Shown here: positions 19,688-37,123 of the stretch, in pieces | Layout: each line of letters starts with the position of its first letter | How positions within the stretch are numbered: the stretch's first letter is position 1 | DNA from: Chitinophagaceae bacterium | GTDB lineage: Bacteria > Bacteroidota > Bacteroidia > Chitinophagales > Chitinophagaceae | Direction: 5' to 3' | DNA: 64,000 bases | NCBI GenBank assembly: GCA_019638615.1 | Contig: JAHBTL010000025.1 | Span: 1 to 64,000 of the forward strand | Notes under the pieces: generated by a model | Told to the model about the DNA's origin: nothing | What the model saw: only the letters and a program-made list of their open reading frames with translations | The model's database searches: none | Made by a program: the position numbers and the translations under genes

Positions 19688-19766
19688 TATAAGAGGTGTC
19701 TTTCAATTGGTTCAATCGCCTTAAATCTTCCAATAAAGAGTTCGAGTTTTGTACCAGTGGGTTCAC
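19688..19766 (+). repeat. Junction R2: element end joined to tRNA 3'-end-like core (att-like)
   Basis: Shares with R1 and R4 the stretch TCAATTGGTTCAATCGCC, then TTAAATCTTCCAATAAAGAG and the core TTCGAGTTTTGTACCA. It ends in GTGGGTTCAC, like an acceptor 3' strand. Together with R1 it brackets the photoprotection operon in direct orientation. Confidence 0.65.
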
Positions 19767-19767: not shown

Positions 19768-19812
19768 AAAAGGGACAAAATGAAATTTTTCATTTTGTCC
19801 CTTTTGTTTTTT
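19768..19812 (+). terminator. Terminator behind junction R2
   Basis: Perfect 18-bp stem (19768-19785 with 19788-19805), a 2-nt loop and a T-rich tail, starting 2 bp after the tRNA-like core. Confidence 0.8.
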
Positions 19813-20104: not shown

Positions 20105-21775
20105 TTAATTATAGGCCAGTAAATTCGTATTCTTAAGGATGAATTGACTGTTGTAAAACTCAACTGTGAAGTTCGCTAGATCATATAAGAATGACAGGAT
20201 ATGCTGAATCTGCGAAGCTGAATGATACACTCCTCTTCGTTGTTCTATTTCGATGATCAGCTTATATTCTGGTGACAATTCATCCAGTTCAATAAAATTA
20301 GTTTCATTAGTAACTGGCGTTTTTATGAGATGATTATAAATGACCTTCACACTATCTTCAAGTAAATTTCTAAAGCAGTTCTCATTCCATAATATCGGTT
20401 TTCTAAACAATAAAGCGATCAGCCGTCTTTTCTGATCAATGCTTGCGTTTTCGTACAGGTAATCAAGCGAGGACAGTGTTCCTGACATTCCGTCTAGTCT
20501 TCCCTCCCAAAGTTTAAGGGAAATATAAGCATTGTCGATTTTACGTTTCAATATTTCCGTTTTTATCTGGCACTCCTTTTTGAGTTTATAATATTCCGGT
20601 GCATCAATATCTTTTGAAAGAAGTAACGAACGTGCTGTTATCATATGATCCTCTAACTCTTCAATCTTTTTGACAGTGCGATGCTGATTGATCATGGTTA
20701 AAAAGGAAGAAGTCTTGTAATTTTTTCTAAGGATTGACTGGAATAAAGTATTGTATTCAGTATTTGGTTTTAATGATTTTATTATGTTGATAAAGGAATC
20801 ATGCACTTTTTCAGTTCTTACTCTGAAGCCACAATTACAGTGATAATAAAAATACCAATTCATTCTCCCTTTTGATCTGCTGCCCGTCAATCTTTGAGAA
20901 CAACGAGGGCAATAAAGAAATCCCCTGAAGGGTAGCATTTCATTGGCGATTTTCTTGCTTACATTCGGTATCATCCTTCTTTTGCTTTTAAGTACATTTT
21001 GTACTTTGTCAAAAAGCAGTTGCGAAATGATTTTTGCATGTTTGCCACTTGCCATCTGTGGTATAATCTGTTTTCTATCTATGATGATTTTTCCGCAGTA
21101 GACCGGATTTCGTAGTGCTTGGCAGAAGTTATTTAACGAGCAAACCAGACCCTTTTTTACAGCCATTCGGTGAATTTCACGGATACTAAATAATCCCAGG
21201 CTAACCTGTTCAAATGCTTCCCGCATCAATGTCGCTTCAGGTTCTTGTATCGCTATGTATTTTTCTCCAGTCGCCGATTGCGTGTTTCGATATCCGATAG
21301 GGGCGCTTCCCATCCACCTACCCATCGCACGTGCTTTTTGCATCTTCTCCTTTACATTCAATGAACGTATATCATTTTCTACTTCATGCGTTACCAGGTA
21401 AATTGCCAGGATCATCTTGTTTTCAGGAATACTTATATCCAATGGCTGTTCTATAGCTTGCGGAATGACATTTATATCCTGAAGCTTTTTAATCATCAGG
21501 TAGGCTTCAGCTATATTTCTGCTAAACCTGTCCCATTTAGTGAAAAGAACATAATCTGGTCTATTGGCTTTGCGGGTTTTGTAACTCATCAATAAAGAAG
21601 ACCATGTTGGACGTTTAAAATTTCTGGCGGGAAAATCCTCAAAGTAGATATTTTGAACCTGGATACTATTTACCAGGCAATGTCGTCGCAAGATATCTTC
21701 CTGATATTTTACTGAAAATCCCTTTTCAGCTTGCTCGTCTGTGCTTACGCGAATGTATAAATCTGCGGTCTTCAT
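20105..21775 (-). CDS. Large serine recombinase (integrase)
   Basis: 556-residue site-specific recombinase. The resolvase domain carries the catalytic serine at residue 11 (LYIRVSTDEQAEKGF), with FTKWDRFSRNIAEAYLMIKK and the ARAMGRWMGSAPIGYR hinge. A recombinase domain (residues about 160-260) and a zinc ribbon (CPRCSQRLTGS...HCNCGFRVRT) follow, then a coiled-coil-like C-terminus. It is full length and appears intact. Such enzymes integrate and excise phages and islands without tRNA preference in general. Its place at the left of the defence run makes it the probable integrase of that island. Confidence 0.92.
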   Translation of the reverse strand: MKTADLYIRVSTDEQAEKGFSVKYQEDILRRHCLVNSIQVQNIYFEDFPARNFKRPTWSSLLMSYKTRKANRPDYVLFTKWDRFSRNIAEAYLMIKKLQDINVIPQAIEQPLDISIPENKMILAIYLVTHEVENDIRSLNVKEKMQKARAMGRWMGSAPIGYRNTQSATGEKYIAIQEPEATLMREAFEQVSLGLFSIREIHRMAVKKGLVCSLNNFCQALRNPVYCGKIIIDRKQIIPQMASGKHAKIISQLLFDKVQNVLKSKRRMIPNVSKKIANEMLPFRGFLYCPRCSQRLTGSRSKGRMNWYFYYHCNCGFRVRTEKVHDSFINIIKSLKPNTEYNTLFQSILRKNYKTSSFLTMINQHRTVKKIEELEDHMITARSLLLSKDIDAPEYYKLKKECQIKTEILKRKIDNAYISLKLWEGRLDGMSGTLSSLDYLYENASIDQKRRLIALLFRKPILWNENCFRNLLEDSVKVIYNHLIKTPVTNETNFIELDELSPEYKLIIEIEQRRGVYHSASQIQHILSFLYDLANFTVEFYNSQFILKNTNLLAYN

Positions 21776-21858
21776 TGTGCTATTTTTGACGGCAATTAAT
21801 TTAATCTTGGAATTACTGGATGTAGCTATTATCCTCTTATTGAGCCAATTCTAATTTT

Positions 21859-21914
21859 ATGAGAAATTTTCTCATTTTATAATAAAAATTAGTATTTTTG
21901 AGAAATTTTCTCAA
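21859..21914 (+). promoter_or_regulatory. Promoter of defence operon with two palindromic operator candidates
   Basis: Two near-identical 17-bp palindromes: ATGAGAAATTTTCTCAT at 21859-21875 and TTGAGAAATTTTCTCAA at 21898-21914. Each is 8-1-8 and their centres are 39 bp apart. Between and overlapping the second is TATTTTTG (21893-21900), a match to the -7 motif TAnnTTTG. The second palindrome ends 1 bp before the ATG at 21916. The layout suggests tight repression of the downstream run. Confidence 0.65.
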
Positions 21915-21915
21915 A

Positions 21916-23211
21916 ATGCTAATAGAGTTTTCGCTAGCTAATTATTTGTCATTCAAGGACAAAACGACTTTAAGCCTTCTTTCTACCTCAATTAAAGAGC
22001 ATAAGGATAAAAATATATTTTCCACAGAAAGACATGATCTGCTGAAAGGGGCTGTGCTATATGGAGCCAATGCCAGTGGGAAAAGCAATTTTATCAAGGC
22101 AATGTCCACTATGCGAAGGCTAATTCTTTTGTCTTTTGAAAAATCTTCCACTGAAGAGTTAGGAATCACGCCATTTCTTTTAAACACTGAAACAGAAAAT
22201 GCTCCTTCTTTATTTGAGGTAGTTTTTCTTATTGACAATATCCGTTATCGTTATGGATTTGAAGTAGACGATACGGCTATACATGCCGAGTGGTTATACG
22301 AAGCAATCAAGCAATCAGAAAAACCGCTATTTATTCGCGAAAAGGATGGAATTGAGGTAATGGAAAAATCTTTTCCTGAGGGAAAAGATTTGGAAGAAAG
22401 AACAAGAGATAACGCCCTTTTTTTGGCAGTCATTGATCAATTCAATGGAAAAACAGCAAAGAAAATCATGCAATGGTTTAGCAATTTTATTACAGTATCA
22501 GGGTTAAGTCATGAAGGTTATAAAGCTGTGACTTTTGGGCTGCTAGAGGACAAAAAAAGTAGGCCTCTTCTATTGGATTTTTATAAAAAGCTGGATTTAG
22601 GATTTGATGATATTACAACGGATAAAAAGCCTTTCGACCCAAAGGAATTACCAGAAGATATTCCTGAAAGCCTGGTGAAACAACTCATTACAGATCTTCA
22701 GGATTCTTTCCGAATTGATATCAGGACCATTCATAAAAAATATGATGCAAAGAATAAAATAGCCGGAAAGGTAGAATTTGATATGCGAAGCCAGGAATCT
22801 TCCGGAACCAACAAGCTATTCAATATCTCGGGGCCTGTATTCGATGTATTGAATGATGGGGGCGTTTTAGTTATTGATGAACTAGATGCCAGTTTGCACC
22901 CTTTGCTGACACTTGCTATCACCAGATTATTCAATTCGGCAGAATTCAATCAAAAAAACGCCCAACTGGTTTTTGCTACACATGATACTAATCTTTTGAA
23001 TTATGGAAGTTATCGTAGAGATCAGATATATTTTGTAGAGAAGAATAAATACGGTGCATCCGAAATGTACTCACTGGTTGAATACAAGGAAGAAGGCAAA
23101 ACCATTCGAAAAGACCGTTCTTTTGAGAAAGACTATATCGAAGGTCGTTATGGTGCTATTCCTTTTATTGGAAATCTTTCAAATGTTGTAAAGGAATGGC
23201 AAGAAAGATAA
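21916..23211 (+). CDS. AAA15-family ATPase (RloA/AbiLi-like), defence
   Basis: 431 residues from the ATG at 21916 (MLIEFSLANYLSFKDKTTLS), chosen because the longer frame would start inside the operator palindrome. Walker A is GANASGKS at residues 50-57. Walker B is VLVIDELDASLHP, and a switch His lies in LVFATHDTNLL. This OLD-like ABC ATPase family is encoded with RloB-type proteins in AbiL-like abortive-infection pairs. The next gene overlaps by 16 nt and is RloB. First gene of the defence run. Confidence 0.88.
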   Translation: MLIEFSLANYLSFKDKTTLSLLSTSIKEHKDKNIFSTERHDLLKGAVLYGANASGKSNFIKAMSTMRRLILLSFEKSSTEELGITPFLLNTETENAPSLFEVVFLIDNIRYRYGFEVDDTAIHAEWLYEAIKQSEKPLFIREKDGIEVMEKSFPEGKDLEERTRDNALFLAVIDQFNGKTAKKIMQWFSNFITVSGLSHEGYKAVTFGLLEDKKSRPLLLDFYKKLDLGFDDITTDKKPFDPKELPEDIPESLVKQLITDLQDSFRIDIRTIHKKYDAKNKIAGKVEFDMRSQESSGTNKLFNISGPVFDVLNDGGVLVIDELDASLHPLLTLAITRLFNSAEFNQKNAQLVFATHDTNLLNYGSYRRDQIYFVEKNKYGASEMYSLVEYKEEGKTIRKDRSFEKDYIEGRYGAIPFIGNLSNVVKEWQER

Positions 23212-23891
23212 AGATACCGAATGAACACCTTAAACGCTATGCAAGGAAGGAACAGAAGCGTAAGCTGAATGTTCGTAATAAGCGTATGTATTACTTGATT
23301 GTTTGCGAAGGAGAAGCTACGGAACCTAACTATTTTGAAGGCTTGAAGCAGGATTTGCCTAAAGGTGTGCTCACTGCCTATCAAATAGATATTGAGGGTA
23401 CAGGGCGTAATACGCAATCCCTGGTAAATGAAGCATTGCGCTTAAAAGTTGTGTACGAAAAAAACAGTACACATCCTGTAGACAGGCTTTGGGTGGTTTT
23501 TGACAGAGATAACTTCGCTGCCAACGATTTCAATAATGCTATTAGTAGTTGTGCACAAAGCAACCCTATAATTGGTTGTGCCTGGAGCAATGAGGCTTTT
23601 GAGTTATGGTATTTGCTTCATTTCCATCACTACCAAAACGCAATGAACCGAAAGCAATATCAAGGTTTGATTGAAGATAATCTTCGTCTTTATGTTGGAG
23701 ATGATTATAATTATGAAAAGAACAGTAAGGAGATGTATGCCTTACTAAAAGAGCACGGTAGTATTAAAGATGCCATTCGGAATGCTAAACGGCTTATGGA
23801 AACTTATGAAGATAGGCAGGACTATGCGGAACATAATCCGTGTACGATGGTGTGGATGTTGGTGGAGGAATTAATGAAATTAAATTTTTAA
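23196..23891 (+). CDS. RloB-family protein (AbiLii-like), Toprim-like
   Basis: 231 residues. RloB signatures are YYLIVCEGEATEPNYFEGLK (acidic EGE) and DRLWVVFDRDNFAANDFNNA (DRD), resembling a Toprim-type metal site, plus AWSNEAFELWYLLHF. It is partnered with the ATPase before it (16-nt overlap). By analogy with ATPase/Toprim pairs the ATPase would sense infection and RloB act as nuclease effector; only the family linkage is established, not the mechanism. Confidence 0.88.
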   Translation: MARKIKIPNEHLKRYARKEQKRKLNVRNKRMYYLIVCEGEATEPNYFEGLKQDLPKGVLTAYQIDIEGTGRNTQSLVNEALRLKVVYEKNSTHPVDRLWVVFDRDNFAANDFNNAISSCAQSNPIIGCAWSNEAFELWYLLHFHHYQNAMNRKQYQGLIEDNLRLYVGDDYNYEKNSKEMYALLKEHGSIKDAIRNAKRLMETYEDRQDYAEHNPCTMVWMLVEELMKLNF

Positions 23892-23910
23892 CTGTTTAAA
23901 ATAACTAAAA

Positions 23911-24201
23911 ATGAACACAGACATTATTACAGCCATTCATAATTTAAATGTAATCGAATTCTACTATGAAGGAGAATTAAGGGTAGTTGAACCACATTGC
24001 TATGGTGAAACAACGGCGGGCAATGAAGGTTTGCGCGCTTATCAGATTGACGGCTATAGCTCAACTGGTAAATTCGGATGGAAAATGTATGATTTAGGGA
24101 AAGCCGATGATATTACTATCACTGAGCAAACTTTTGATGGTCCAAGAGAAGGATATAAACGCGGAGATAAAGGCATGTCCCGTATTCACGCTGAACTTTA
24201 A
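23911..24201 (+). CDS. Small WYL-like domain protein
   Basis: 96 residues that look like a free-standing WYL-type domain: AIHNLNVIEFYYEGELRVVE, PHCYG, then GLRAYQIDGYSS...WKMYDLGKADDITI. WYL domains bind ligands, often nucleic acids or nucleotides, and usually sit behind a DNA-binding HTH, which is missing here. Nineteen bp after rloB and 10 bp before the next small gene, so it is inside the defence transcript. It could be a sensor subunit; function unproven. Confidence 0.7.
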   Translation: MNTDIITAIHNLNVIEFYYEGELRVVEPHCYGETTAGNEGLRAYQIDGYSSTGKFGWKMYDLGKADDITITEQTFDGPREGYKRGDKGMSRIHAEL

Positions 24202-24211
24202 ATTTTTAATA

Positions 24212-24430
24212 ATGGAAAGATATAGAAACAGAGCAGGTGATTCAGGAGTATCTGCCTATGAAATAGGTAACGATTATATTAAGATAAAATTCTCAAGTTC
24301 TTTTAGAACTTATACTTATAGCTATCGAAAAGCAGGAAGTTCTCACGTTGAGAATATGAAGCGATTAGCTCAAAGTGGAAGTGGCTTGAATAGTTATATT
24401 AATAGATATGTAAAGCATTTGTACGATTAA
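24212..24430 (+). CDS. KTSC-like small protein
   Basis: 72 residues from the ATG at 24212. The pattern SGVSAYEIGNDYIKIKFSSS, TYTYSYRKAG, and MKRLAQSGSGLNSYINRYV fits the KTSC-like small domain. These proteins are often found near DNA-processing genes. It lies 10 bp after the WYL-like gene and 21 bp before the AAA_13 ATPase. Role in defence unknown. Confidence 0.7.
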   Translation: MERYRNRAGDSGVSAYEIGNDYIKIKFSSSFRTYTYSYRKAGSSHVENMKRLAQSGSGLNSYINRYVKHLYD

Positions 24431-24451
24431 TTGCTATAAATTCTGCCGATA

Positions 24452-26743
24452 ATGATTAAGCGCATTGACCAAATAAGAGATTTTGGCATCTTTAAAAACT
24501 TCAATTGGGGAACTATTTCTGATATTGAAGAATTTAAAGAAAAGAATATCCTATATGGATGGAACTATTCCGGCAAAACAACATTGTCAAGAATTTTCAC
24601 TTCCTTAAGAGATAAAGGAATTCATTCTGGACATAAATCAGGCATAATAAAACTAACCTGTGACAGTGGAGTTTTTGACAATGCAACCCTACCTTCGTTT
24701 CCCTATGAAGTTTTAGTGTTCAATGCGGAATATGTAAAAGATAATCTTCGATGGGAATTTGACGAACACATTCAGGCTATTTATTTTGAAGTAGGAAACA
24801 ACGCTAAAATAGCCGCTGAAATAGAAAGAATTGAAAAGCTTATTGACGCAATCAACGGTACTACCACAGTAAAAGGCAAGAAAGAAAGATATCAGAATGC
24901 AATTGATGAATTCAACAATTTTGAAGCCTTATTTACACAAGAGGCCGGCAGGATTAAAAATGATGCTTTTTCAAGCTTGATAGAATTCAACAAAGGGCAT
25001 CTCAAAAGAATTAAAGACAAGATATTGGATGACTTAGAAGACTTTATTATAGATTCAAAAGAAGAATTGGCTGTACTATCCAAAACTATTAAGATTGAAG
25101 AGCCTAAGCCTCAATTGAAAGATGTTAATATTGAATCCAATATCAAAAAAATAATTGATTCTGCAAATGAGATAGTTCAAAGAGTACCTTCTAAAGAAAA
25201 TATTATTGGTGTTTTAGACAAACACCTGCCTGCTTTTACTTGGGTAAAGTCAGGCGTAGCACTGCACAAAGAAAGTGACAGTTGCCTTTTTTGCGGAAGT
25301 AAAATACCAGATAAACGATTTGCTCAATTAATAAGTTACTTTGAAAATGAATCCTCAAGACTAAAAGATCATATATCCTCCCTTTTAAATTTTATTTCTG
25401 AAGAAGAAAAAAGCATTGATCAGTTAAATATTCCTACAAGTATTAATGACTTTAATGATGGATTTCAGGAAGGCTTTAAAAGCCGAAAGCAAAAAATTGA
25501 AAAGGAAATTGCCAAATGCAAAGCGCAATTAAAAAGTATATCAATAGCATTAAGCAAAAAAGCTACCAATAAAATATATAGTCCGATAGATGTCTCATTT
25601 TCAATAGAAAAGTTCGAACAGCTATTTAATGAAATAAAATTGCTTAACGAGCTAATTAACGAAAACAATCAGTTTACTGAAAACTTCGAAAAAATCATTA
25701 CTGCTGACAGAGACCGATATAAAAATCATCTGGTTGCTTTATTCTTAAAACAATCGAAATATCTTATCAGGCAATCCCAATATGAAAAAGCTCTGGATAA
25801 GATTGAATCCCTTGATGAACAAATTTCAGCTTACAGCAGTGAGATTAGTAGGCTTACAGCACTAAAAGAAAGCGATTCTGAAGGTTGTGCACAATTCAAT
25901 TCGTTTGTTCAAAGTTTTTTAAGCAGAGATGATATCGAAATTAAATTGAACACCTCCACAAAGAAGTTCAATTTGATGAGGGGAGCAGAGTTAGCTCAAA
26001 ATCTCAGTGAGGGAGAGAAAATGGCAATAGCCTTCTCTCACTTTCTAGTAAATCTCAAAAGTATTGAACAAAAGAGTAAACTTAAAGATTACATTATCTA
26101 TATAGATGATCCTATCTCAAGCTTGGATAGCAATCATATTTTTCAGATCAATTCACTTCTTAAAGAAACATTTTTTGAGTTAGTGACAGATCCTGCAAAA
26201 CCTAAAAATCCTTATTGGAAACTGAAGTGTAAACAACTGTTTATCTCTACACATAATTTTGAATTTTTTACGCTCTTAAAGGAGTTACCTAAAAAAGGAC
26301 ACAAAGATTCAAGATATTTTATTGCAAGAAAAGCAACAGAATCAACTATTGAGAAGCTTCCGGCGGTATATAGCAGTTTTGCTTCTGAGTATCACTATTT
26401 ATTTGGAGAAATACTAACGTTTTCAAACGATCCTAACAAGAATACTTCGCCAAAACTTTTATTTATTCCCAATATAGTACGAAGGTTCCTCGAAATGTAT
26501 ACGTTGACCAAATTACCTACTAACGATGAGGTTGATACCCGTGCTGAAAAAATATTTGGTAAAAAAGATGCAAAAAGAATACTAAAGCTACTTCATCATT
26601 TTAGCCACTTTAACAATATTGACCGAATAAGCAAGCATAGTGAATTTGTAGCTGACATAGGACACGCTTGTGATGACTTAATTTATCTGATAAAAACAAA
26701 GGATAAAATGCACTACGATGCTTTGGAAGCATCAGTAACGTAG
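24452..26743 (+). CDS. AAA_13-family ATPase, SMC-like
   Basis: 763 residues. Walker A GWNYSGKTT at residues 36-44, then a long helical/coiled-coil region holding CLFCGSKI (CxxC, zinc-hook-like, near residue 280). The ABC signature LSEGEKMAIAFSHFL and Walker B YIIYIDDPISSLDSNHI follow. The C-terminal tail has LFIPNIVRRFLEMYTLTK and HHFSHFNNIDR. The fold is that of PrrC/RloC ATPase modules, but I do not see a clear anticodon-nuclease tail, so an ATPase subunit is safer. The next gene, a GIY-YIG-like protein, starts 6 bp later; together they look like an ATPase-nuclease pair. Confidence 0.82.
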   Translation: MIKRIDQIRDFGIFKNFNWGTISDIEEFKEKNILYGWNYSGKTTLSRIFTSLRDKGIHSGHKSGIIKLTCDSGVFDNATLPSFPYEVLVFNAEYVKDNLRWEFDEHIQAIYFEVGNNAKIAAEIERIEKLIDAINGTTTVKGKKERYQNAIDEFNNFEALFTQEAGRIKNDAFSSLIEFNKGHLKRIKDKILDDLEDFIIDSKEELAVLSKTIKIEEPKPQLKDVNIESNIKKIIDSANEIVQRVPSKENIIGVLDKHLPAFTWVKSGVALHKESDSCLFCGSKIPDKRFAQLISYFENESSRLKDHISSLLNFISEEEKSIDQLNIPTSINDFNDGFQEGFKSRKQKIEKEIAKCKAQLKSISIALSKKATNKIYSPIDVSFSIEKFEQLFNEIKLLNELINENNQFTENFEKIITADRDRYKNHLVALFLKQSKYLIRQSQYEKALDKIESLDEQISAYSSEISRLTALKESDSEGCAQFNSFVQSFLSRDDIEIKLNTSTKKFNLMRGAELAQNLSEGEKMAIAFSHFLVNLKSIEQKSKLKDYIIYIDDPISSLDSNHIFQINSLLKETFFELVTDPAKPKNPYWKLKCKQLFISTHNFEFFTLLKELPKKGHKDSRYFIARKATESTIEKLPAVYSSFASEYHYLFGEILTFSNDPNKNTSPKLLFIPNIVRRFLEMYTLTKLPTNDEVDTRAEKIFGKKDAKRILKLLHHFSHFNNIDRISKHSEFVADIGHACDDLIYLIKTKDKMHYDALEASVT

Positions 26744-26749
26744 AGATTT

Positions 26750-27220
26750 ATGAGTAACCAAATAGAAAAAAATACGATTGATATATACTTCGACAGCCCC
26801 ATGCAGTTTGAGGCTAAGAATATTAAACCTTTGAGCGGTATTACAGGCTTATATTTCATTTTCAGCTCCACGATTCAAATCCAGTACCCATTTGAAAAAT
26901 CAAGGCTGCTGTACATAGGAATGAGTGAAAGAAGAACGAATAGTATCGGAAGTAGACTAATAGGGCACTTTGAAGGTAAATCAAAAAATGTAGGGTTGGT
27001 CAGTTATAGAAAAATAGAGCCACTTTGGTTTACTTATATCAATATAGAAATGCTTAGAAATATCTGGAGTTTCAGAGTAGAAGATTTGGAAAGTTACTTT
27101 ATCCTAAATTTCGTGGAGCATTTTGGAGTATATCCGATTTGTAATAATAAAACAGGATTTGAGATATTGAACAACACTCTAACAACAGATTTTAAAATTG
27201 ATTGGAATTACTTTAAATAA
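26750..27220 (+). CDS. GIY-YIG-like nuclease domain protein
   Basis: 156 residues. The GIY-YIG elements are GITGLYFIF (GIY strand) and SRLLYIGMSERRTNSIGSRL (YIG strand, with the candidate catalytic Arg in SIGSRL), then the candidate catalytic Glu in VEDLESYFILNF. The spacing is longer than in minimal domains. It lies directly behind the AAA_13 ATPase and may be its effector. Restriction-type GIY-YIG proteins cut DNA; activity here is inference. Confidence 0.68.
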   Translation: MSNQIEKNTIDIYFDSPMQFEAKNIKPLSGITGLYFIFSSTIQIQYPFEKSRLLYIGMSERRTNSIGSRLIGHFEGKSKNVGLVSYRKIEPLWFTYINIEMLRNIWSFRVEDLESYFILNFVEHFGVYPICNNKTGFEILNNTLTTDFKIDWNYFK

Positions 27221-27227
27221 TGTAACA

Positions 27228-27419
27228 ATGGAAGAAAACAAAGTAAAATCAGGCAAAGCAATTTTAGATGATTTTTTCAAAGAGATTTCATCTATTGAAA
27301 AGGTTGATAAAACGATTGCTGACAGTTTAGCAGAATTATACACGAATGGAAAATTAACCGACAAGAATGTGATTAATGAACTTCAAAAAATAAGAACTGA
27401 GAATGGCAACGAAAATTAA
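27228..27419 (+). CDS. Small acidic/helical protein, partner of SbcC-like ATPase
   Basis: 63 residues from the ATG at 27228 (MEENKVKSGKAILDDFFKEI). Helical with no recognised domain. Its 3' end overlaps the next ATPase gene by 17 nt, so the two are translationally coupled. It may be an antitoxin-like or adaptor subunit; unknown. Confidence 0.65.
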   Translation: MEENKVKSGKAILDDFFKEISSIEKVDKTIADSLAELYTNGKLTDKNVINELQKIRTENGNEN

Positions 27420-29832
27420 AAGTATATCAATCACAGGAATTAGGGGAATAAAGGATTTCATTTCATTACCGCTTGATGAAAAATCCGTATTGCTTTATGG
27501 CGATAACGGGACAGGGAAAAGCAGTATTTCTGATGCTATCGAGTGGTTTTATACAGATAAAGTTTCTCACTTGTCAGGTGGTGAAATTGACTTAAAAGAT
27601 GCTTTGCGAAATTCGTATCAGAAGGATACTGATACCGCTTCTATTGCTATTTCATACAATAGAAATGTGATTGGCGCTACAAAGAGTTTGTTTAGCAAAA
27701 GGGGAAAGCTGACATCTGAATTATCTAATTCGTCCGATGATTTTCAGAATTATTATGTCGCTTCTCAAAGTGAAAATCTATTGCTTCGATACCAATTTCT
27801 GCGAGATTTCATTGACCAAACAAAAGGCGACAAACTCAAATATTTGTCGGATATTATCGGATTTTCAGAAGTAACCAAAACAAAAGATGTTTTGAGAAAA
27901 GCGTTTAGCTCAATCAAGTCAGAGATAAAAACACAAAATTTTGAAGCTCAAATCAACAACGAAAAACAAACACTAATTGCAAAAATTGGTGCAGCAGTTA
28001 GCCTAGAAAATAACTTGTTTGAAAAGATAAACGAAATAATTGAGCCTTTAAAAACAGGAATTGCTGTAAATTCTATTGAGGATATCGACAAGGTTTTGAA
28101 CCACATCAAGAAACCTACCAACACAAAACAGATAACAGAACTTCAATTTTTAGAAAACACGAACAAAGCACTTTCAACACTTAGAAGTGAAATTTCATTT
28201 ATTGACGGAGAATATCAAAAATACTTTTCGGAGTTTAATAAGATTGCCGAAGATGTTCAAAGTATAATGCAAACTTTTTTGGCTGAACTATTGAAATCGG
28301 GGGAAACAGTTATTTCAAAGAAATATCACAAAGAGGATAATTGTCCTTTATGTTTGCAACAACTAAATCTTGAAGAATTAAAAACGGATATTCAACGCAG
28401 GTTAAAAGAAATAGAAGAATCCTCTAAAAAGAAAGTTGCTTTTGACTCTGCTAAAAAATCTATTGCCGACATTGTGGCGGAACGCTTGAAACGACTTGAA
28501 CTTACAGCGAATAACGCTTTGCTGAGTGAGCAAGAAAATGAAAGTATCAAAAAGGCAATAAGTAATTTAAACACCAAGCTAACCGAATACCAGAAAGCTG
28601 CTAATGAAAAAGTTACTTCGGGGAATAAACTTCCTGCCAACAATACGTTGATTTTAACTAAAGATGATTTCAAAATTCAAGATCAAATTTCTGTAAGATT
28701 TGAAGCAATACAAGCCACATTAAAAAACGATAAATCAACCGAACTTTACGCAAACATTTCGGCTGCAAAAGATGCTTTTTTGAAAATCAAACGATTTGAA
28801 AAAGACAAAAGCAAGTTAGAGCATCAGAAAAATTCTTTGGAACTAATTTATAACGAGTTTGTAAAACGCCAAAAAGAAGGATTGGAAAGTTTTATAAATA
28901 CGTTTTCTTCATACATAAATGACTTCTATCAATATATGAACCCTGATGAACAATTTCACGAAATCAGGATTGTAACTATTGGAGAGGAAGATGAATTAAA
29001 CGGAATTACGATTGAATACAAATACAATAATCTGTGGGTTTCTCCCCCGCAAAAATATTTTAGTGAATCACATTTAAACTGCTTTGGCATTTCATTTTTC
29101 TTGGCTTCGGTAATTGCATTTAATAAAGAAAATAAGTTTATCATATTAGATGATGTAATTTCAAGTTTTGACTCTACGCACAGAAAACGTTTTGCTGATT
29201 TGTTGTTTGAAAAATTTGCCGATTATCAATTTATTCTCTTGACACACGAAGCAGAATGGTTTAGTTATGTTCAACAATTAGCCAAAAGAAAAGGTTGGAT
29301 AATCGGGGAAATCAAGTGGGCAGAAGCGAAAGGCACACACCTTGAAGAAAAGCCAAATCACCTGAAAGAATTTATAGAACGAGAACTTGCAAATAGCTCG
29401 GTTGAAACGCTTGGAAATCCAATACGAAAATACTTGGAAGCCAAACTGAAAGACATTTGTTTGAATTTAGATGTAAAAGTTAGTTTCAGGCTAAATGACG
29501 TGAATGAAAAGAGAATGCCTGACGAATTATTGAATGAATTGAAATCCAAAATCAATAAAAGTGGCGGACAGGATATAAAAGCAAAAGTTCCCATTATTGA
29601 GCGTATTGCAGGTTCATCTTTGCTTGGAAATTTGCTTTCCCACGATAATCCGTTCAATCCCAAAATTGGAGATTTAAAAGCATTCTGGGCGGACATAAAA
29701 GAACTCGAAACCATATTTTATTGTCAGGAATCAACTTGCACACGACCAAAGGTTTCAATAAAAAACTATGATAATGTTGCGAAGAAAATAAGGTGTGGTT
29801 GTGATACGACAAAATATGATTGGAAAGAATAG
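27403..29832 (+). CDS. SbcC/RecF-like ATPase with zinc hook and C-terminal Cys cluster
   Basis: 809 residues. Walker A GDNGTGKS at residues 33-40, long coiled coils with CPLCLQQL (CxxC zinc hook) near residue 310, and Walker B FIILDDVISSFDSTHRKRFA followed by FILLTHEAEWF. The C-terminal domain ends in a Cys cluster (FYCQESTCTRP...IRCGC), possibly a zinc ribbon. This is an SMC/Rad50-like DNA-binding ATPase without an own nuclease domain that I can see. It is coupled to the small gene before it, and Wadjet JetA starts 5 bp after its stop. Could be a Lamassu-like or new system component. Confidence 0.8.
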   Translation: MATKIKSISITGIRGIKDFISLPLDEKSVLLYGDNGTGKSSISDAIEWFYTDKVSHLSGGEIDLKDALRNSYQKDTDTASIAISYNRNVIGATKSLFSKRGKLTSELSNSSDDFQNYYVASQSENLLLRYQFLRDFIDQTKGDKLKYLSDIIGFSEVTKTKDVLRKAFSSIKSEIKTQNFEAQINNEKQTLIAKIGAAVSLENNLFEKINEIIEPLKTGIAVNSIEDIDKVLNHIKKPTNTKQITELQFLENTNKALSTLRSEISFIDGEYQKYFSEFNKIAEDVQSIMQTFLAELLKSGETVISKKYHKEDNCPLCLQQLNLEELKTDIQRRLKEIEESSKKKVAFDSAKKSIADIVAERLKRLELTANNALLSEQENESIKKAISNLNTKLTEYQKAANEKVTSGNKLPANNTLILTKDDFKIQDQISVRFEAIQATLKNDKSTELYANISAAKDAFLKIKRFEKDKSKLEHQKNSLELIYNEFVKRQKEGLESFINTFSSYINDFYQYMNPDEQFHEIRIVTIGEEDELNGITIEYKYNNLWVSPPQKYFSESHLNCFGISFFLASVIAFNKENKFIILDDVISSFDSTHRKRFADLLFEKFADYQFILLTHEAEWFSYVQQLAKRKGWIIGEIKWAEAKGTHLEEKPNHLKEFIERELANSSVETLGNPIRKYLEAKLKDICLNLDVKVSFRLNDVNEKRMPDELLNELKSKINKSGGQDIKAKVPIIERIAGSSLLGNLLSHDNPFNPKIGDLKAFWADIKELETIFYCQESTCTRPKVSIKNYDNVAKKIRCGCDTTKYDWKE

Positions 29833-29837
29833 ATTTT

Positions 29838-31262
29838 ATGAACTACGAAAAAGCCTTATCCCTTTATCGCAATGACAAAACATTGCAGCTATTGCGGGCG
29901 GAACATTTTCCGCTGCTGGTAGGCTTTTTTCATTTGGCATTCAAGCAGCAAGACAGGATTTCGTATTTGCAGAGTGAATTGCAAAGTCTTTTGGGAGACT
30001 ACATTTATGCACTCCAGCGGCAGGATATCAATGATTACGGAAAATCAGCCGTAGATTATTTGCAAAAATGGGCTGAACAGGGATATCTGCGGAGGTATTA
30101 CGAAAGAGCCGACGAACCCGTGTATGAACTCTCTCCCGCAACAGAGAACGCCTTAAAATGGCTGGAAGACCTGAATAAACAACAATTTGTAGGTACCCAC
30201 AGCCGTCTCATACAGTTCTTTCATTTACTGCAACAGATTGTCAATACAACCTCCGGCCCCTACGAGCGTATCCAGCAGTTACAGGAAGAACGCAATAAAA
30301 TTGACAAAGAAATCGAACAGATCAGACAGGGGAATTTTTCCAGGCCATCCAGTACCCAGGTCAAAGAAAATTATTTTCTGGCAGAAGAAACAGCTAGAAG
30401 GTTGCTGTCCGATTTTCGGCAGGTGGAAGAAAACTTCAGAGAGCTGGATACACAAACCCGGCAAACGATCATCAAAAGCAATCTCGCAAAAGCAGACCTT
30501 TTGGATAATGTATTTCAGCAACAGGATTACCTCTGGAGTACCGACCAGGGAAAAAGCTTTAAAGCTTTCTGGGAGTTTTTGATGAGCGAGCAGATGCAGG
30601 AAGAACTGGAACAACTACTTGAAAGGATCAACAGCATACCTGCAATCTTGGAAATCAAAAAAGAGCAGACTGTAGACAGGATAAAAGCAAATCTCGTGGA
30701 CGCAGGAGATAAAGTAAATCGCAGTAATGATGGTTTGATAGAACAACTCAGAAAGTTTGTGGAACAAAAGAATCTCTCAGAAAGTCGCCATATCCTTCAA
30801 AGCATCGAACAGATAGAAAGTCTTTTGTTGGAACATAAAGAAACGATCGACCAGCAGGCCGTCTGGATGGAAACCGATGGACTTTTTAAACCCTCGTTTA
30901 CAATGGATCGTCCGCTTTTTAATCCTCCGGTAAAAGTTGCTTTTGAAAATACGGCTATCGAAGACGGTCTGGCCGAAGCGGACACAGACATCCTTTTTGA
31001 ACAATTTTATGTGGATATAGACCAGCTGAGAAACAACGTGAGATCCTTATTGAAAAATAGATCCCAGATTGCGCTTTCCGAGTTGTTAAGTTATTACAAA
31101 CCTACCAAAGGTGTTGCCGAGATATTAGGCTATATGCAGATCGCAACAAATGAAGGCAAACACATAGTGAACCGGGAACAACTAGAATATCTGATCATTG
31201 AGAACACGGGCAGTGGGAAAAAGTATCGTATGCGGACACCGGTCATCATTTTTAACCGATAA
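29838..31262 (+). CDS. jetA: Wadjet type I protein JetA (DUF3375)
   Basis: 474 residues from the ATG at 29838 (MNYEKALSLYRNDKTLQLLR); an earlier in-frame start at 29820 would overlap the ATPase gene. DUF3375 features: LRAEHFPLLVGFFHLAFKQQ, helical middle, winged-helix-like ends. JetA is the kleisin-like (MukF-related) subunit of the JetABC SMC complex that recognises circular plasmid DNA. Followed in order by jetB, jetC, jetD, with gaps of 5-9 bp or overlaps. Confidence 0.92.
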   Translation: MNYEKALSLYRNDKTLQLLRAEHFPLLVGFFHLAFKQQDRISYLQSELQSLLGDYIYALQRQDINDYGKSAVDYLQKWAEQGYLRRYYERADEPVYELSPATENALKWLEDLNKQQFVGTHSRLIQFFHLLQQIVNTTSGPYERIQQLQEERNKIDKEIEQIRQGNFSRPSSTQVKENYFLAEETARRLLSDFRQVEENFRELDTQTRQTIIKSNLAKADLLDNVFQQQDYLWSTDQGKSFKAFWEFLMSEQMQEELEQLLERINSIPAILEIKKEQTVDRIKANLVDAGDKVNRSNDGLIEQLRKFVEQKNLSESRHILQSIEQIESLLLEHKETIDQQAVWMETDGLFKPSFTMDRPLFNPPVKVAFENTAIEDGLAEADTDILFEQFYVDIDQLRNNVRSLLKNRSQIALSELLSYYKPTKGVAEILGYMQIATNEGKHIVNREQLEYLIIENTGSGKKYRMRTPVIIFNR

Positions 31263-31267
31263 ACAAT

Positions 31268-31837
31268 ATGGAACAAAAATATTCTTTAAGTCTCATTGCC
31301 TTGCTAAAAGGGATTGTGTACAACCACCAGAAAGAGGTATGGGAAAACTTACTGCATTACGAACCCGATGTTAAAAAATATTTCGTTCCCATCGGTCTTG
31401 AATTGTTTTTGGATAAAAGCGAAGGTTATGCTTTTCTCAGGCAAAAAGAATTGGAAGAAGATGAGTTGCAACTGCCAAAACTGGCGGAAAAACGTCAGCT
31501 CAATTTTATGACTTCGTTGGTATGTGTTGTGTTAAGAAAATATTTGCTTGAACATGATGCCCAGGGAGGATCTGTACGCTCTATTATCAGCGAACAGGAG
31601 ATCATCAACCGGACAAAGGTGTTTTTGCCGAATGCAAGTGATGAAGCCAAACAGCAGGAAAAGATTACAACAACCATAAACCGGGTACTTGAAATAGGTT
31701 TTTTGAGAAAGCTAGAAGATCTGGAAAAAAACTATGAAATACACCGCATTATCAAGGGCTTTGTAAATGCCGATGTGATAGACGATACATTGAAGCGGTT
31801 CCAGGGTTACGCGGCAGAAAAACAGGTAACAGAATAA
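31268..31837 (+). CDS. jetB: Wadjet protein JetB (DUF4194)
   Basis: 189 residues of DUF4194 (MukE/KITE-like). Recognised from LIALLKGIVYNHQKEVWENL, RQLNFMTSLVCVVLRKYL and TTTINRVLEIGFLRKLEDLE (winged helix). It is the accessory subunit that bridges JetA and JetC. Five bp after jetA. Confidence 0.92.
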   Translation: MEQKYSLSLIALLKGIVYNHQKEVWENLLHYEPDVKKYFVPIGLELFLDKSEGYAFLRQKELEEDELQLPKLAEKRQLNFMTSLVCVVLRKYLLEHDAQGGSVRSIISEQEIINRTKVFLPNASDEAKQQEKITTTINRVLEIGFLRKLEDLEKNYEIHRIIKGFVNADVIDDTLKRFQGYAAEKQVTE

Positions 31838-31846
31838 GCATTCACT

Positions 31847-34800
31847 ATGGAAGAAATTTTAAATACCATACCGGAAGAGATCAACCTGTCTGGTTTTCGG
31901 CTTCAATATTTGGAAGTACTCAACTGGGGTACCTTCAACAAAGTGCGCTGGCAGATACAACCCAACGGGCATAACGCTTTGCTGACAGGTGATATCGGTT
32001 CTGGTAAATCTACCTTAGTGGATGCCCTGACCTGTCTTCTGGTACCGCATAATAAGATTGTTTTTAACAAAGCTGCCGGGGCCGAAGGAAAAGAACGCAA
32101 CCTATTGAGCTATGTGAGAGGCGAATATAAAAAGGAAAAAGAAGAGATCACCAAGGTAGCCAAGAAAGTGTATCTCCGGTCGGATGACAATACCTATACC
32201 GTAGTGATCGGAAATTTCCACAATGAGGGCTATAATGAAGATATCTGTCTTGCCCAGTTCTTTTGGATAGGCAAAGAAGGCAAAGTAGAGAAACTGCTTA
32301 TTATAGGAACGGTACCATTAACGATTAAAGATCACTTTGGAAACTTTACAGATATTAATGATCTGAGGAAAAAACTCCGTAATACGGACGGGGTGCAACT
32401 ATTCAACGATAACTTCTCCCAATATAGCGAACATTTTAGACGGCTTTTTGGCATGAATAGCGATAAGGCCATTGACCTGTTTTATCAAACCGTTTCAATG
32501 AAATCCGTGAGCAGTCTTACTGATTTTGTACGGGAACAAATGCTGGAGAAGACCGATGTGAAAGAACAGATCATAGCATTGCTGAAACGGTTTGATGACC
32601 TTAATAAAGCCCATGCCGCTGTGGTACACACCAGGGAGCAATACCTGATATTGAAACCACTGACCGAATCCTGTATCGAATATGGAAAAGTAACCCGGGA
32701 GATAGAGGACATCGAAGCCATGCTGGAAGTAATGCCGGTTTGGTTCGCCGAAAAGAAATGGGGGCTGTTAGAACAGGCTATTGAAGATGCCGGCAATGAG
32801 TTGAAAAAGGTCATGCAGCAACAGCAACGCATGGTTGAGGAACTGGATGGGCTGGAAAATAGAAGGCAGACGATTATACAGGATATTGCCAGCAATGGTG
32901 GAAAAAGAATAGAGCAAATTGCGGGAGAGATCAAAAGGCATGAGCAGGACAAAGAAACCAAGCAGAAAGAATTTGACGATTATGAACGTCTTGCACTGCA
33001 ATCGGGACTTAAAGGTGTACAGAATGAAAGTGAATTTGAGGAAAACATTAAGAAGGCAAAGGAACTTGACGAACAATGTGGACAGCTTGAAGAGCAGCTT
33101 CGTGAGCAGCGGGACAACCAGATAACGGAATTGCGCAAGCAGGAAACAGAATACCGCCTGGAACTAAAAGAGCTTCAATCCCTAAAAGAACGAAAAACAC
33201 AGATACCGGCCTGGCTCGTTGGCTTTCGTTCGCAATTATGTGGTGATTTGCGCATTGATGAAGAAGAGCTGCCTTTCGCAGGGGAACTATTGAAAGTGAA
33301 TGAAGATGAAACTGCATGGGAAGGTGCAATAGAAAAGCTGCTGCATGATGTTGGTATCAGTCTGCTGGTGCCTAAAAATCATTATAGGAGTGTCAGCACT
33401 TATGTAAATAACAACCCGTTAAAAAGTGCTGATGGGCGGGGCATCAAATTCACTTACCTGGAGGCTGATTTGTATAACAGCAACAGCCGCATAATTAAGG
33501 AGCTGGATCAGGATAGTATCGCATATAAAATGGACATCAAGCCTGAAACACCTTTTTACGATTGGTTGGAAGCCTATATACAGCGGAGCTTTGGAGACTA
33601 TATGTGTACCGATGTAACCGGTTTACAACATGTACCTTTTGGTATTACCCAACAAGGTTTGATAAAAAGCGGTCGTATAAGGCATACAAAGGATGACCGT
33701 AAACGTATTGATGACAGACGTAACTATGTGTTGGGATGGAGTAATACGGAGAAAATAAAAGCGCTGGAAACTTCTGTTGATAAACTGGATAAAAAGATAA
33801 ATGAGCTAAGATCGCAACTTAACAGTATTGAAGTTCAAGAGAAGAAAAACAAAGAGCAACAACAACTCTTAGGTTTGTTACTTTATGTCAGGGACTTTTC
33901 CCGTATCAACTGGCGGTATCACGTTGGGAAAATCTACGAGCTGGAGCAGGAACGCAACGAATTGCTTAATAACAATGATATTCTTGCGCAATTACAACGC
34001 AATAAAAGCGATGTTGATCAGCAGATCAGTGAGGCCAAAACAAAAGAAAAACAATTAACGGAAAAAATCGGTGGTGTGAAAACGACCATTAAAAGCTATG
34101 AGGAGCAGCAACAAAGTGCTTATCAGCAAAAGGAACAATTAGCTGTCCACCTAAAAGAAAAATGGTACCCCTTGATTGAACAGAAACTCGTTGAAATAAA
34201 AATCACCCTAAGAGGTATCGACAACAGGCAGGAAGAATTCCGCAAACAGTTTCAGGGCGAAAATGGCGAATTACGGAAACTTCGGGGACGGCAAATGGGC
34301 TATCGGTCTTCGATTGAAAAAAAGATGCGGGAAATCAAGGAACATTCCAGGGCGGAATACAGTGAGATTGCAGAAAGCATAGATTCCCGTGCAGAGTATA
34401 TTAAAAAGTTCGAACAGTTGGTTTCCGAAGATTTAAAGCGTCATGAAGAACGTTTCAAGGAAGAGCTGAACAAGAATGTCATTAACAGTATTGCAGTATT
34501 CGACAGTCAGCTACAGAAACATGAAACGGATATCAAACAAAAAATACGTACCATCAACCAGCATCTTTCCGAAATAGTGTACAATGCTTCGCAGGATACC
34601 TATATCACCATTCTGATGGATGCCACCGCCAATAAGGAAATACGCCTTTTTAGGGAAGAACTAAAGAAATGTTACATCCATTCGTTCAGTAGCAATAACG
34701 ACCTATACACGGAGGAAAAGTACGAACAGGTTAAACGCATTCTGGATCGCTTCGCAAGTATGGAAAATATGGACCGCGACTGGACTTCAACCGTTACCGA

Positions 34801-35254
34801 TGTGCGCCAATGGTTTGAATTTAATGCCAGCGAACGTTTTCGTCTGGATAACAGCGAAAAGGAATTCTACGAGGGTTCTGGCGGAAAGAGCGGCGGTCAG
34901 AAAGAAAAACTAGCCTACACAATTCTTGCTAGCGCATTGGCCTATCAGTTTGGACTACAATTCGGGGAGAGCAAAAGCCGGAGTTTTCGCTTTGTGGTCA
35001 TTGACGAGGCTTTTGGCAGAGGTAGCGATGAAAGTACACGCTATGGGCTCGAACTTTTTAAAAAGCTCAATCTCCAACTGCTTATTGTTACCCCATTGCA
35101 AAAAATACATGTAATAGAAGGTCATGTAAATTCTTTTCACTTTGTCAGCAACAGAGAGGGTAATAATTCGCAAGTCAGTAATTTCACAAAAGAAGAATAT
35201 GAAAGCGAACGCGCTAAGCATAGCGGTATTTTTCAAACTACATCAGATATATGA
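31847..35254 (+). CDS. jetC: Wadjet SMC-like ATPase JetC
   Basis: 1135 residues, the MukB/SbcC-like motor. Walker A GDIGSGKST at residues 48-56. Two long coiled coils (about 290-440 and 640-960) surround a hinge-like region. The C-terminal head has the signature GSGGKSGGQKEKLAYTILAS and Walker B RFVVIDEAFGRGSDESTRYG. Known role: ATP-driven DNA loop extrusion that measures circularity of plasmids. The end overlaps jetD by 4 nt. Confidence 0.94.
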   Translation: MEEILNTIPEEINLSGFRLQYLEVLNWGTFNKVRWQIQPNGHNALLTGDIGSGKSTLVDALTCLLVPHNKIVFNKAAGAEGKERNLLSYVRGEYKKEKEEITKVAKKVYLRSDDNTYTVVIGNFHNEGYNEDICLAQFFWIGKEGKVEKLLIIGTVPLTIKDHFGNFTDINDLRKKLRNTDGVQLFNDNFSQYSEHFRRLFGMNSDKAIDLFYQTVSMKSVSSLTDFVREQMLEKTDVKEQIIALLKRFDDLNKAHAAVVHTREQYLILKPLTESCIEYGKVTREIEDIEAMLEVMPVWFAEKKWGLLEQAIEDAGNELKKVMQQQQRMVEELDGLENRRQTIIQDIASNGGKRIEQIAGEIKRHEQDKETKQKEFDDYERLALQSGLKGVQNESEFEENIKKAKELDEQCGQLEEQLREQRDNQITELRKQETEYRLELKELQSLKERKTQIPAWLVGFRSQLCGDLRIDEEELPFAGELLKVNEDETAWEGAIEKLLHDVGISLLVPKNHYRSVSTYVNNNPLKSADGRGIKFTYLEADLYNSNSRIIKELDQDSIAYKMDIKPETPFYDWLEAYIQRSFGDYMCTDVTGLQHVPFGITQQGLIKSGRIRHTKDDRKRIDDRRNYVLGWSNTEKIKALETSVDKLDKKINELRSQLNSIEVQEKKNKEQQQLLGLLLYVRDFSRINWRYHVGKIYELEQERNELLNNNDILAQLQRNKSDVDQQISEAKTKEKQLTEKIGGVKTTIKSYEEQQQSAYQQKEQLAVHLKEKWYPLIEQKLVEIKITLRGIDNRQEEFRKQFQGENGELRKLRGRQMGYRSSIEKKMREIKEHSRAEYSEIAESIDSRAEYIKKFEQLVSEDLKRHEERFKEELNKNVINSIAVFDSQLQKHETDIKQKIRTINQHLSEIVYNASQDTYITILMDATANKEIRLFREELKKCYIHSFSSNNDLYTEEKYEQVKRILDRFASMENMDRDWTSTVTDVRQWFEFNASERFRLDNSEKEFYEGSGGKSGGQKEKLAYTILASALAYQFGLQFGESKSRSFRFVVIDEAFGRGSDESTRYGLELFKKLNLQLLIVTPLQKIHVIEGHVNSFHFVSNREGNNSQVSNFTKEEYESERAKHSGIFQTTSDI

Positions 35255-36414
35255 TTAACCCTGTTGAAATAAAAAAGCAGGCCTTGAGATGGTGGAAGCC
35301 GCTACTGCAAAGTCGTATTTTGGAGGAGCCATTTTTCCCCAAAAGTATTGATCGTATCGGGAAAGTTAAATCTGGTCATATAACAGCGCGATTTGAAGTG
35401 CTGCAAGGGGAAATAGAAGAACTTTACCGCTACTCCAAAAACCAAACCGGTAAAGGCTATCTTGTTCAGACCACCGGGCGGAATTTTAGACGAACAGGTA
35501 GCCATGAACTGCCGGATACCATTTTTTTTGAAACCATTGACGATTACATCTATTTCATAGGGTATAAAAAGGAATGGAGTATTTTCCTGGAAAATTATAG
35601 CACTATTATAAACAGCGCTCCAAGATTGAAAGACTGGGCTTTGAATAATTGTTTATGGTTAACAGAAAGGAATATAAAGTGGAATGATATAATTAAAGTT
35701 TGTCAATACTTCATTCAAAATCCAAGACCCGATATTTACCTGCGGCAACTACCTATAGAAATCCACACAAAGTTCATTGAGGAAAACAATGCATTAATCC
35801 AATCCTTGCTTGACTTTCTTATTCCCGATCATATACGTTCAATTACCCAAAAGCGCTTCGTAGAACGCTATTTTTTGAAATATGATGAACCGCTTGTCAG
35901 AATACGCATGCTGGACACCGATTTGACCTGCTTTGGTAATTTTTCCGATATTAGTATCCCACTTTCCGATTTTGAAAAACTGGATATACTTGCAAAGAAC
36001 GTATTGATTACAGAGAATAAGATGAACTTTCTCACATTACCGGCCGTGCCTTCTACAGTTGCTGTTTGGAGCGGCGGCGGGTTTAATGTCAGTTACCTCA
36101 AAAATGTTCATTGGCTGACGGAGAAGCACATTTTCTATTGGGGAGATATTGACGAACATGGTTTTCAAATTCTCCACCAACTTAGAAGCTATTATCTAAA
36201 CACGCAAAGCATCATGATGGACTGTAAAACTTTTGAGTATTTTTCGGAATTTGCAGTAACAGGATCACGCAACAAATCTGAACGGCTTTCATTACTAAAT
36301 AATGAAGAACACAACCTTTTTGAAAAATTAAAACAGATAGATAATAACAGGTTGGAGCAGGAAAAAATTTCTCAGAGGTATGTCGAAGAATATTTAAAAA
36401 GCCTTCTGCCATAA
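35251..36414 (+). CDS. jetD: Wadjet nuclease JetD (DUF3322/DUF2220, Toprim)
   Basis: 387 residues. An N-terminal DUF3322 region (WKPLLQSRILEEPFFPKSID) is followed by a C-terminal DUF2220/Toprim-like domain. VLITENKMNFLTLP (Glu255) and FYWGDIDEHGFQIL (Asp299, Asp301) are the metal-binding residues. It is the topoisomerase VI-like nuclease that cuts the plasmid once JetABC stalls. All catalytic acidic residues are present, so the system appears intact. Last gene of the defence run. Confidence 0.93.
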   Translation: MINPVEIKKQALRWWKPLLQSRILEEPFFPKSIDRIGKVKSGHITARFEVLQGEIEELYRYSKNQTGKGYLVQTTGRNFRRTGSHELPDTIFFETIDDYIYFIGYKKEWSIFLENYSTIINSAPRLKDWALNNCLWLTERNIKWNDIIKVCQYFIQNPRPDIYLRQLPIEIHTKFIEENNALIQSLLDFLIPDHIRSITQKRFVERYFLKYDEPLVRIRMLDTDLTCFGNFSDISIPLSDFEKLDILAKNVLITENKMNFLTLPAVPSTVAVWSGGGFNVSYLKNVHWLTEKHIFYWGDIDEHGFQILHQLRSYYLNTQSIMMDCKTFEYFSEFAVTGSRNKSERLSLLNNEEHNLFEKLKQIDNNRLEQEKISQRYVEEYLKSLLP

Positions 36415-36570
36415 AAGGTTCCAGCAGAAATACGGAAGATAATTTCATTGAATAATAATATAATACATTGTTTAATAGAATTAACACGACAACATTTAAT
36501 AATATTATCACGAGTCGCAAAAAAGAATGCTAGTCATGAGTTGTATTGCCCCAGTGAAAATTTATAGCTC
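36415..36570. other. AT-rich spacer after jetD
   Basis: No gene or clear hairpin terminator seen between jetD and junction R3. Confidence 0.4.
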
Positions 36571-36627
36571 ACTTAGCAACTTCAAATCGCTTAAAAAGTG
36601 GTTCGAGTTTTGTACCACAGGGATCAC
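36571..36627 (+). repeat. Junction R3: element end joined to tRNA 3'-end-like core (att-like)
   Basis: ACTTCAAATCGCTTAAAAAG leads into GTGGTTCGAGTTTTGTACCA and CAGGGATCAC. The core TTCGAGTTTTGTACCA is the same as in R1 and R2, but the arm upstream is only weakly similar. The DNA behind it (terminator, small gene, abiE) is homologous to what follows the intact tRNA-Lys at 54726. Confidence 0.65.
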
Positions 36628-36638
36628 GGTGAATTTAG

Positions 36639-36674
36639 AAGCCTTCAAATTCGTTGAGTTTGAAGGCTTTTTTG
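36639..36674 (+). terminator. Terminator behind junction R3
   Basis: AAGCCTTCAAA (36639-36649) pairs with 36659-36669, then T6. Nearly identical to the terminator behind tRNA-Lys at 54811. Confidence 0.8.
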
Positions 36675-36773
36675 TATTCGATCAATAGATGCTCACAAAA
36701 CTGGAAAATCATAATCAACTAATACAGAACTTTTAATGAGTTCGAATACCAAAAGGATTCATTGATAATAAAA

Positions 36774-36974: not shown

Positions 36975-37075
36975 AGTTTCTTTTTACAATAAAAATCTGT
37001 GATGTTACTGTTGAATGCAGGTATTGAAATCTTTACGGGTAAGATATAATTATAGCCTACTATATGAGAGTGATT

Positions 37076-37114: not shown

Positions 37115-37123
37115 TTTTACTCT

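Follow-up and report, generated by a model that had tools for sequence, protein, structure and literature searches.

Background

Mobile DNA that carries defence genes has been described in several forms. In the SCC design, Ccr serine recombinases are combined with tandem cassettes and direct att repeats, and the SCC att site lies at rlmH. Pseudomonas islands (PMC12629846) hold variable defence modules at fixed places within mobile islands. The pEFER BREX-BrxU island (PMC8565348; PMC9122601) gathers several defence systems in one cluster under the control of BrxR, which acts through inverted repeats; BrxR there is a separate repressor of the HTH-WYL type, and several promoters serve the island. 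Co-expression of separate defence systems is poorly understood. A literature search, in which subscription journals were thinly covered, yielded no description of the element reported here or of a palindrome before RloA.

A run of twelve genes

The window, which is the whole 64,000-nucleotide stretch of Chitinophagaceae DNA that was analysed, contains twelve genes between positions 21916 and 36414 of the + strand, each of which starts with ATG:

21916..23211, +, RloA / AbiLi ATPase (Pfam AAA_21, 4e-40; PADLOC AbiLi, 2e-96)
23196..23891, +, RloB / AbiLii (RloB, 3e-47; AbiLii, 1.8e-31)
23911..24201, +, 96-aa protein without family match; 77%-identical copy in locus L070
24212..24430, +, 72-aa protein without family match
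24452..26743, +, AAA_13 ATPase, RloC/PrrC-like (AAA_13, 2.5e-112; PDC-S06, 9e-139; PrrC, 9e-12)
26750..27220, +, GIY-YIG-like nuclease, gene 1 of a trio (Pfam, 0.022, below cut-off; plasmid counterpart)
27228..27419, +, 63-aa protein, middle gene of the trio (plasmid counterpart; similar position in L005 and L006)
27403..29832, +, SMC/LmuB-like ATPase of the trio (SMC_N, 6e-13; LmuB, 1e-27)
29838..31262, +, JetA (JetA1, 1e-153)
31268..31837, +, JetB (JetB1, 3e-65)
31847..35254, +, JetC (JetC1, E 0, 1280 bits; solved JetC 8dk2, 1e-62)
35251..36414, +, JetD (JetD_C, 3e-46)

The successive junctions measure -16, 19, 10, 21, 6, 7, -17, 5, 5, 9 and -4 bp, which confirms the unbroken one-strand run described in the original prediction, with limits of -17 and +21 bp. 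The 5-bp spacing claimed between an SMC-like ATPase and Wadjet is also correct, since the LmuB-like stop lies 5 bp from the JetA start at ATG 29838 (a TTG at 29820 falls upstream of JetA), and family scans bear out the claim of four P-loop ATPases (RloA, the AAA_13 protein, the SMC/LmuB-like protein and JetC). Of the label "AAA15 ATPase/RloB", RloB holds; the ATPase is of the AAA_21/AbiLi type rather than AAA_15. The names WYL-like (96 aa) and KTSC-like (72 aa) gained no support, as both small proteins lack an NCBIfam match and a relevant Pfam match (E <=0.1), the KTSC open reading frame having entered the Pfam scan with too early a start. A KTSC match is present for the small gene of the relative L072.

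The first two genes, an AbiLi-type ATPase followed by RloB, constitute an AbiL / RloAB pair, and the last four, jetA, jetB, jetC and jetD, all present and in order, a type I Wadjet. RloA also matches AriA (2e-37), more weakly than it matches AbiLi. RloB has no sequence match to AriB, and a fold search with its model (pLDDT 79.9) returned nothing significant (best E 0.023; AriB absent among the best 50 listed). The fifth gene supplies the AAA_13 ATPase by which RloC / PrrC is recognized, with the PrrC profile covering only residues 456-653; residues seen by eye may be those of a C-terminal anticodon nuclease. According to PMC12409363, AriB of PARIS cuts tRNA-Lys(UUU), as does PrrC. An element at tRNA-Lys that perhaps carries tRNases would be a curious match, a thought tempered by the absence of an AriB match for RloB.

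The three genes for the GIY-YIG-like nuclease, the 63-aa protein and the ATPase form a separate unit. Three adjoining genes of an Aliiroseovarius plasmid match them at 39%, 25% (over 56 aa) and 30% identity, respectively, the GIY-YIG gene being on the opposite strand, and these genes adjoin TniQ, TniB and Mu-type transposase genes. The 39%-identical counterpart is annotated GIY-YIG.

A site-specific mobile element

The sequence shows the twelve-gene run to be cargo: it lies within one site-specific mobile element, which extends from about 19740 to 36627 and is bounded as follows:

19740..19766, +, left att copy, resembling the 3' end of tRNA-Lys
20105..21775, -, large serine recombinase, 556 aa (Pfam Resolvase, 3e-19; Recombinase, 3e-7)
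36601..36627, +, right att copy, the same core repeated

The order is thus an att copy, the leftward recombinase, the rightward run and the second att copy. The recombinase, whose zinc ribbon match (1.3e-4) is below its cut-off, is present as a single copy in the genome; from its position, it would act on these att sites. The 27-bp att core occurs four times in the window (9828, 19740, 36601 and 39061; <=3 mismatches), with none expected by chance. When compared with tRNA-Lys genes (window 54726-54799; L066, L072, L082 and L175), the core resembles their 3' end but has five extra bases. As these repeats indicate, the element sits within a tandem array, and the att copies of the array's cassettes are similar to the 3' end of tRNA-Lys. 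An empty site is present in G396, a genome of the same genus: contig C18 equals window 3931-19771 at 99.97-100% and then runs into DNA homologous to window 36628 onward, the joined flanks aligning over 557 bp at 96% without a gap. Recombinase, two att copies and empty site together identify a site-specific serine-recombinase element, and the recombinase and att repeats, absent from the original prediction, explain the run.

Both ends of the element are seen in the window, L065, L066 and L082, and also in L171, there with other cargo. A matching core follows JetD in L064, L065 and L082, and the tRNA-Lys end is repeated after JetD in L066. A divergent recombinase, whole or in pieces, adjoins the head gene in L065, L066, L080, L069, L171 and L175. 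In plasmid and phage records, relatives of the recombinase were found only at <60% identity.

Window 1-3000 is 100% identical to G396 C18, and the array as a whole 99.97-100%, versus 89-96% between window 45-48 kb and G396; thus, either the array moved recently or contigs have been mis-binned. Both G000 and G396 appear to be drafts, so that the array contig could have been placed in the wrong bin.

Other features surround the element. An att-bounded neighbour cassette (window 9828-19740; eight open reading frames scanned) carries carotenoid-type genes and a DNA photolyase and is nearly identical in G396, while a small att-bounded cassette (36627-39061) carries an AbiEi/AbiEii pair. To the left of the array, window 1-9530 contains an RND-type pump gene, two RteC genes and a topoisomerase gene, and resembles a portion of a conjugative element. 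On the left side of every att core, for example at 19699-19739, the reverse strand can be read as a short peptide that is conserved between copies despite many silent changes. A reading of the att core itself as such a coding repeat was dropped, given its resemblance to tRNA-Lys 3' ends.

Among 20 more distant relatives of the recombinase (35-43% identity; L213-L232), which mostly have other cargo, a tRNA gene overlaps or abuts the 3' end of the recombinase gene in 15 (Met 4, Arg 3, Pro 2, Leu 2, and one each of Glu, Lys, Phe and Val). The pattern suggests a family of serine recombinases that target tRNA genes.

Constant ends and an exchanged middle

Eighty JetA loci were listed and 21 annotated, together with further RloA and recombinase loci. 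L066, L072 and L080 were taken, from matching layouts, as the G674, G403 and G396 loci, each counted once; L081, whose JetA is truncated, was left out. The annotated gene orders show that relatives retain the end genes and trade complete predicted defence modules between them:

Window: RloAB first, Jet last; RloC-like gene and GIY-YIG/LmuB-like trio between
L065: RloA(B) first, Jet last; QatABCD and DUF6904 between
L066: RloA(B) first, Jet last; a 115-aa gene between
L072: RloA(B) first, Jet last; SIR2-HerA, KTSC and a 346-aa gene between
L080 (G396): RloA first, Jet last; middle empty, RloB also gone
L082: RloA(B) first, Jet last; Avs3a and a 267-aa gene between
L068, L071: SbcCD first, Jet last; Gabija between
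L069: SbcCD first, Jet last; AAA_13 and SymE, behind a divergent recombinase
L070: SbcCD first, Jet last; "WYL", OLD-like and 121-aa genes between
L064: Jet last; HTH gene and QatABCD ahead
L175: RloAB without Wadjet; Avs3a, then an MksE-like gene
L177, L180: RloAB without Wadjet; five genes of like sizes
L178: RloAB without Wadjet; pAgo and a nuclease
L179: RloAB without Wadjet; KAP and QatABCD
L181: RloAB without Wadjet; close cargo absent
L171 (G399): recombinase at 91%; SbcCD, ABC three-component genes, nSTAND3 and a helicase

Wadjet is present in half of the 12 RloAB loci with annotated downstream genes and absent from the other 6. A search for the same gene order elsewhere, which had been proposed as a check, gives a divided answer: the full twelve-gene order is in none of the other annotated loci, while the frame RloA(B)...JetABCD recurs. 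Two loci have an extra gene between JetB and JetC (RhuM-like in L080, a DUF1016 stub in L072). At G396, the junction retains sequence similar to the final 50 bp of the LmuB-like gene, a leftover that indicates a deletion at this locus. Of 11 other genomes of the genus that were searched, only G396 and G403 contained a close JetC (77%), and none of 43 pattern matches for JetA in viral contigs was a relative.

Identities to the window differ between the two ends. L072 is closer at the head (RloA 95%, RloB 91%, JetA 79%, JetC 75%) and L065 at the tail (RloA 81%, RloB 72%, JetA 94%, JetC 95%); L064 has JetA at 98%, JetC at 95% and JetD at 79%. Because the RloA and Jet identities cross, the two ends have different histories, that is, they have reassorted; identity steps are also visible along the DNA.

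Co-directional genes upstream of Wadjet are no clear mark of Bacteroidota (11/20 loci versus 13/30 others). For this comparison, 56 of the 80 JetA loci were entered, and 6 non-Bacteroidota loci were dropped when the ORF picker missed JetA. Within the Bacteroidota set, at a 150-bp limit, such a gene is present in 11/12 loci with JetA at >=78% identity and 0/8 otherwise, a split chosen after the data had been seen; co-directional cargo stands at 167 bp in L078 and at 282 bp in L079. G000:C10 (L047), G396:C36 (L048), G399:C22 (L049) and G402:C22 (L050) each contain a second, distant Wadjet (JetC 31-32%), in which one or two additional genes separate JetC from JetD.

Transcription signals along the run

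Past the end of the run, just outside the element, lies a candidate terminator:

36637..36671, +, terminator-like hairpin with the longest stem found (16 pairs), about 220 bp past JetD

The scan that detected it gave 18 terminator-like matches in all, versus 13.4 expected, including seven weaker + strand matches inside the run, all within genes. The Bacteroidota-type promoter consensus, TTG-N17-23-TAnnTTTG, had no match in 21701-36700, the run's head included (1.2 expected), and σ70-like promoter matches were at chance level (51 versus 55.7 expected). The tight junctions, the palindrome pair at the head (see below) and the terminator at the end support the predicted single transcription unit; the missing promoter consensus at the head counts against it.

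The run might instead be an ordinary defence island in a mobile element, composed of abutting independent operons with weak promoters of their own, the head palindromes serving RloAB alone. In L064, L065 and L066, some genes of the corresponding runs are separated by 103-174 bp, which leaves room for internal promoters and counts against a single unit; promoter-like matches at 9 of 12 positions stand near the starts of the WYL, KTSC and small genes; and in relatives such as L067, L074 and L075, Wadjet occurs without upstream cargo. However, the window junctions are all <=21 bp, several of them overlaps, and the promoter-like matches are no more frequent than chance provides. Independent operons are thus unlikely, although they are the strongest of the alternatives.

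A palindrome ahead of RloA

A predicted operator and promoter lie just ahead of the run:

21860-21874 and 21899-21913, no strand assigned, two 15-bp palindromes TGAGAAATTTTCTCA around TATTTTTG, which lies at 21893

The two copies begin 56 and 17 bp ahead of RloA and flank the TATTTTTG box. With <=2 mismatches allowed within 160 bp and 300 shuffles per locus, the 15-bp palindrome TGAGAAANTTTCTCA was found ahead of close RloA (identity >=61%) in 13/13 loci, each match being equalled in 0 of 300 shuffles, and two copies were found in 10 of the 13. (L153 entered the motif analysis alone; the motif test did not include L158 or L166, the latter being the same gene as L182.) At the same threshold, none of 14 loci with distant RloA (31-44%) has the motif; four have a 3-mismatch site, a level reached by 1-6 of 300 shuffles, which counts against specificity.

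Exact sites number 16 in 294 genomes of the family. Nine, in 7 genomes, lie shortly before RloA, and these are all of the exact sites (9/9) in genomes with close RloA; G601, G453 and G581, which also have close RloA, contain near versions only. The other 7 sites, to be set against 9 sites in 9 genomes for a control pattern, count against the link with RloA: each is in a different genome that lacks RloA at E 1e-60, and no RloA or RloB was found within the 2-3 kb read around them. Since RloA and RloB are the common element of the palindrome sites, one of them would be the binder. That the palindrome pair is an operator for the RloA or RloB product, with RloAB setting all downstream expression, Wadjet included, is a serious possibility at somewhat less than even chance. 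The motif, specific to the head gene pair, lends partial support to the joint regulation at which the original prediction had hinted.

Alternatively, the palindromes could be a nucleic-acid signal for RloAB, either a hairpin in the leader RNA or a DNA site sensed by RloA. They overlap the likely message start and accompany close RloA, as such a signal would. However, TAnnTTTG begins exactly 6 bp before a palindrome copy in 11/13 loci, and overlap with a promoter fits an operator better; a signal of this kind is improbable, slightly more so than independent operons.

A probable modular run behind one promoter

The locus is probably a defence-cargo element with an exchangeable middle, its genes forming one read-through run behind a head promoter. 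Modules would have been built into this unit while the recombinase faces away from it. The palindrome pair would serve as operator, through which the RloA or RloB product would control everything downstream, including Wadjet. The modules would be expected to work separately, with activities taken from the named families: an abortive ATPase/nuclease pair (RloAB), a tRNase (the RloC-like protein), a DNA sensor plus nuclease (the GIY-YIG/LmuB-like trio) and a system against plasmids (Wadjet). A further idea, less probable than the operator itself, is that RloAB is both a defence pair and a master switch, whose product would bind the paired palindrome over the promoter and restrain the run of interchangeable defences; infection or entry into a new cell would then release RloAB, the exchanged modules and Wadjet together. 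If so, the element would be a chassis that takes defence modules behind one sensor-controlled promoter.

A fused machine in which the four ATPases cooperate, as the tight layout and the SMC/Rad50-like character of three of them (AAA_13, LmuB-like and JetC) might suggest, is very improbable, given that relatives exchange the middle modules or do without them (as L080/G396 does), that Wadjet without RloAB and RloAB without Wadjet both exist, and that a plasmid carries the GIY-YIG trio by itself; the fixed fusion of systems in the original prediction thus fails, and its single transcription unit is supported by sequence.

With constant ends, one predicted operator and varied inserts, the element and its relatives provide a natural series suited to tests of joint regulation and module exchange. 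Places to seek new defence genes are the intervals between RloAB (or SbcCD) and Wadjet and between tRNA-Lys-like att copies.

Comparison with known systems

Within this run, type I Wadjet is the last module of a longer series, and AbiL / RloAB opens a long run and is preceded by a conserved palindrome. The trio resembles Lamassu and ABC three-component systems in its LmuB-matching ATPase and in its layout of effector, small middle protein and ATPase. However, its effector is GIY-YIG-like and its 63-aa middle protein has no family match; among the PADLOC matches listed, the trio has none to LmuA (effector P0006) or LmuC, and neither P0006 nor P0007 has a Pfam match to an ABC three-component middle component or effector domain. 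The ABC three-component gene set was found in the relative L171.

Like SCC-type cassettes, the element has a serine recombinase, tandem cassettes and direct att repeats. However, its recombinase scores far below the Ccr NCBIfam cut-offs (89.9 versus 900 bits), and its att resembles tRNA-Lys. Like the pEFER island, it clusters multiple defence systems with inverted repeats, here a predicted operator; unlike that island, it has no recognized HTH gene in the window run, its motif accompanies RloA, and its modules are swapped between fixed ends within a serine-recombinase element. In contrast to the Pseudomonas hotspots, swapping occurs inside one same-strand run. Thus, the parts are ordinary and the build is unusual: a serine-recombinase element that carries one modular defence run, with recurring ends and a motif at its head gene.
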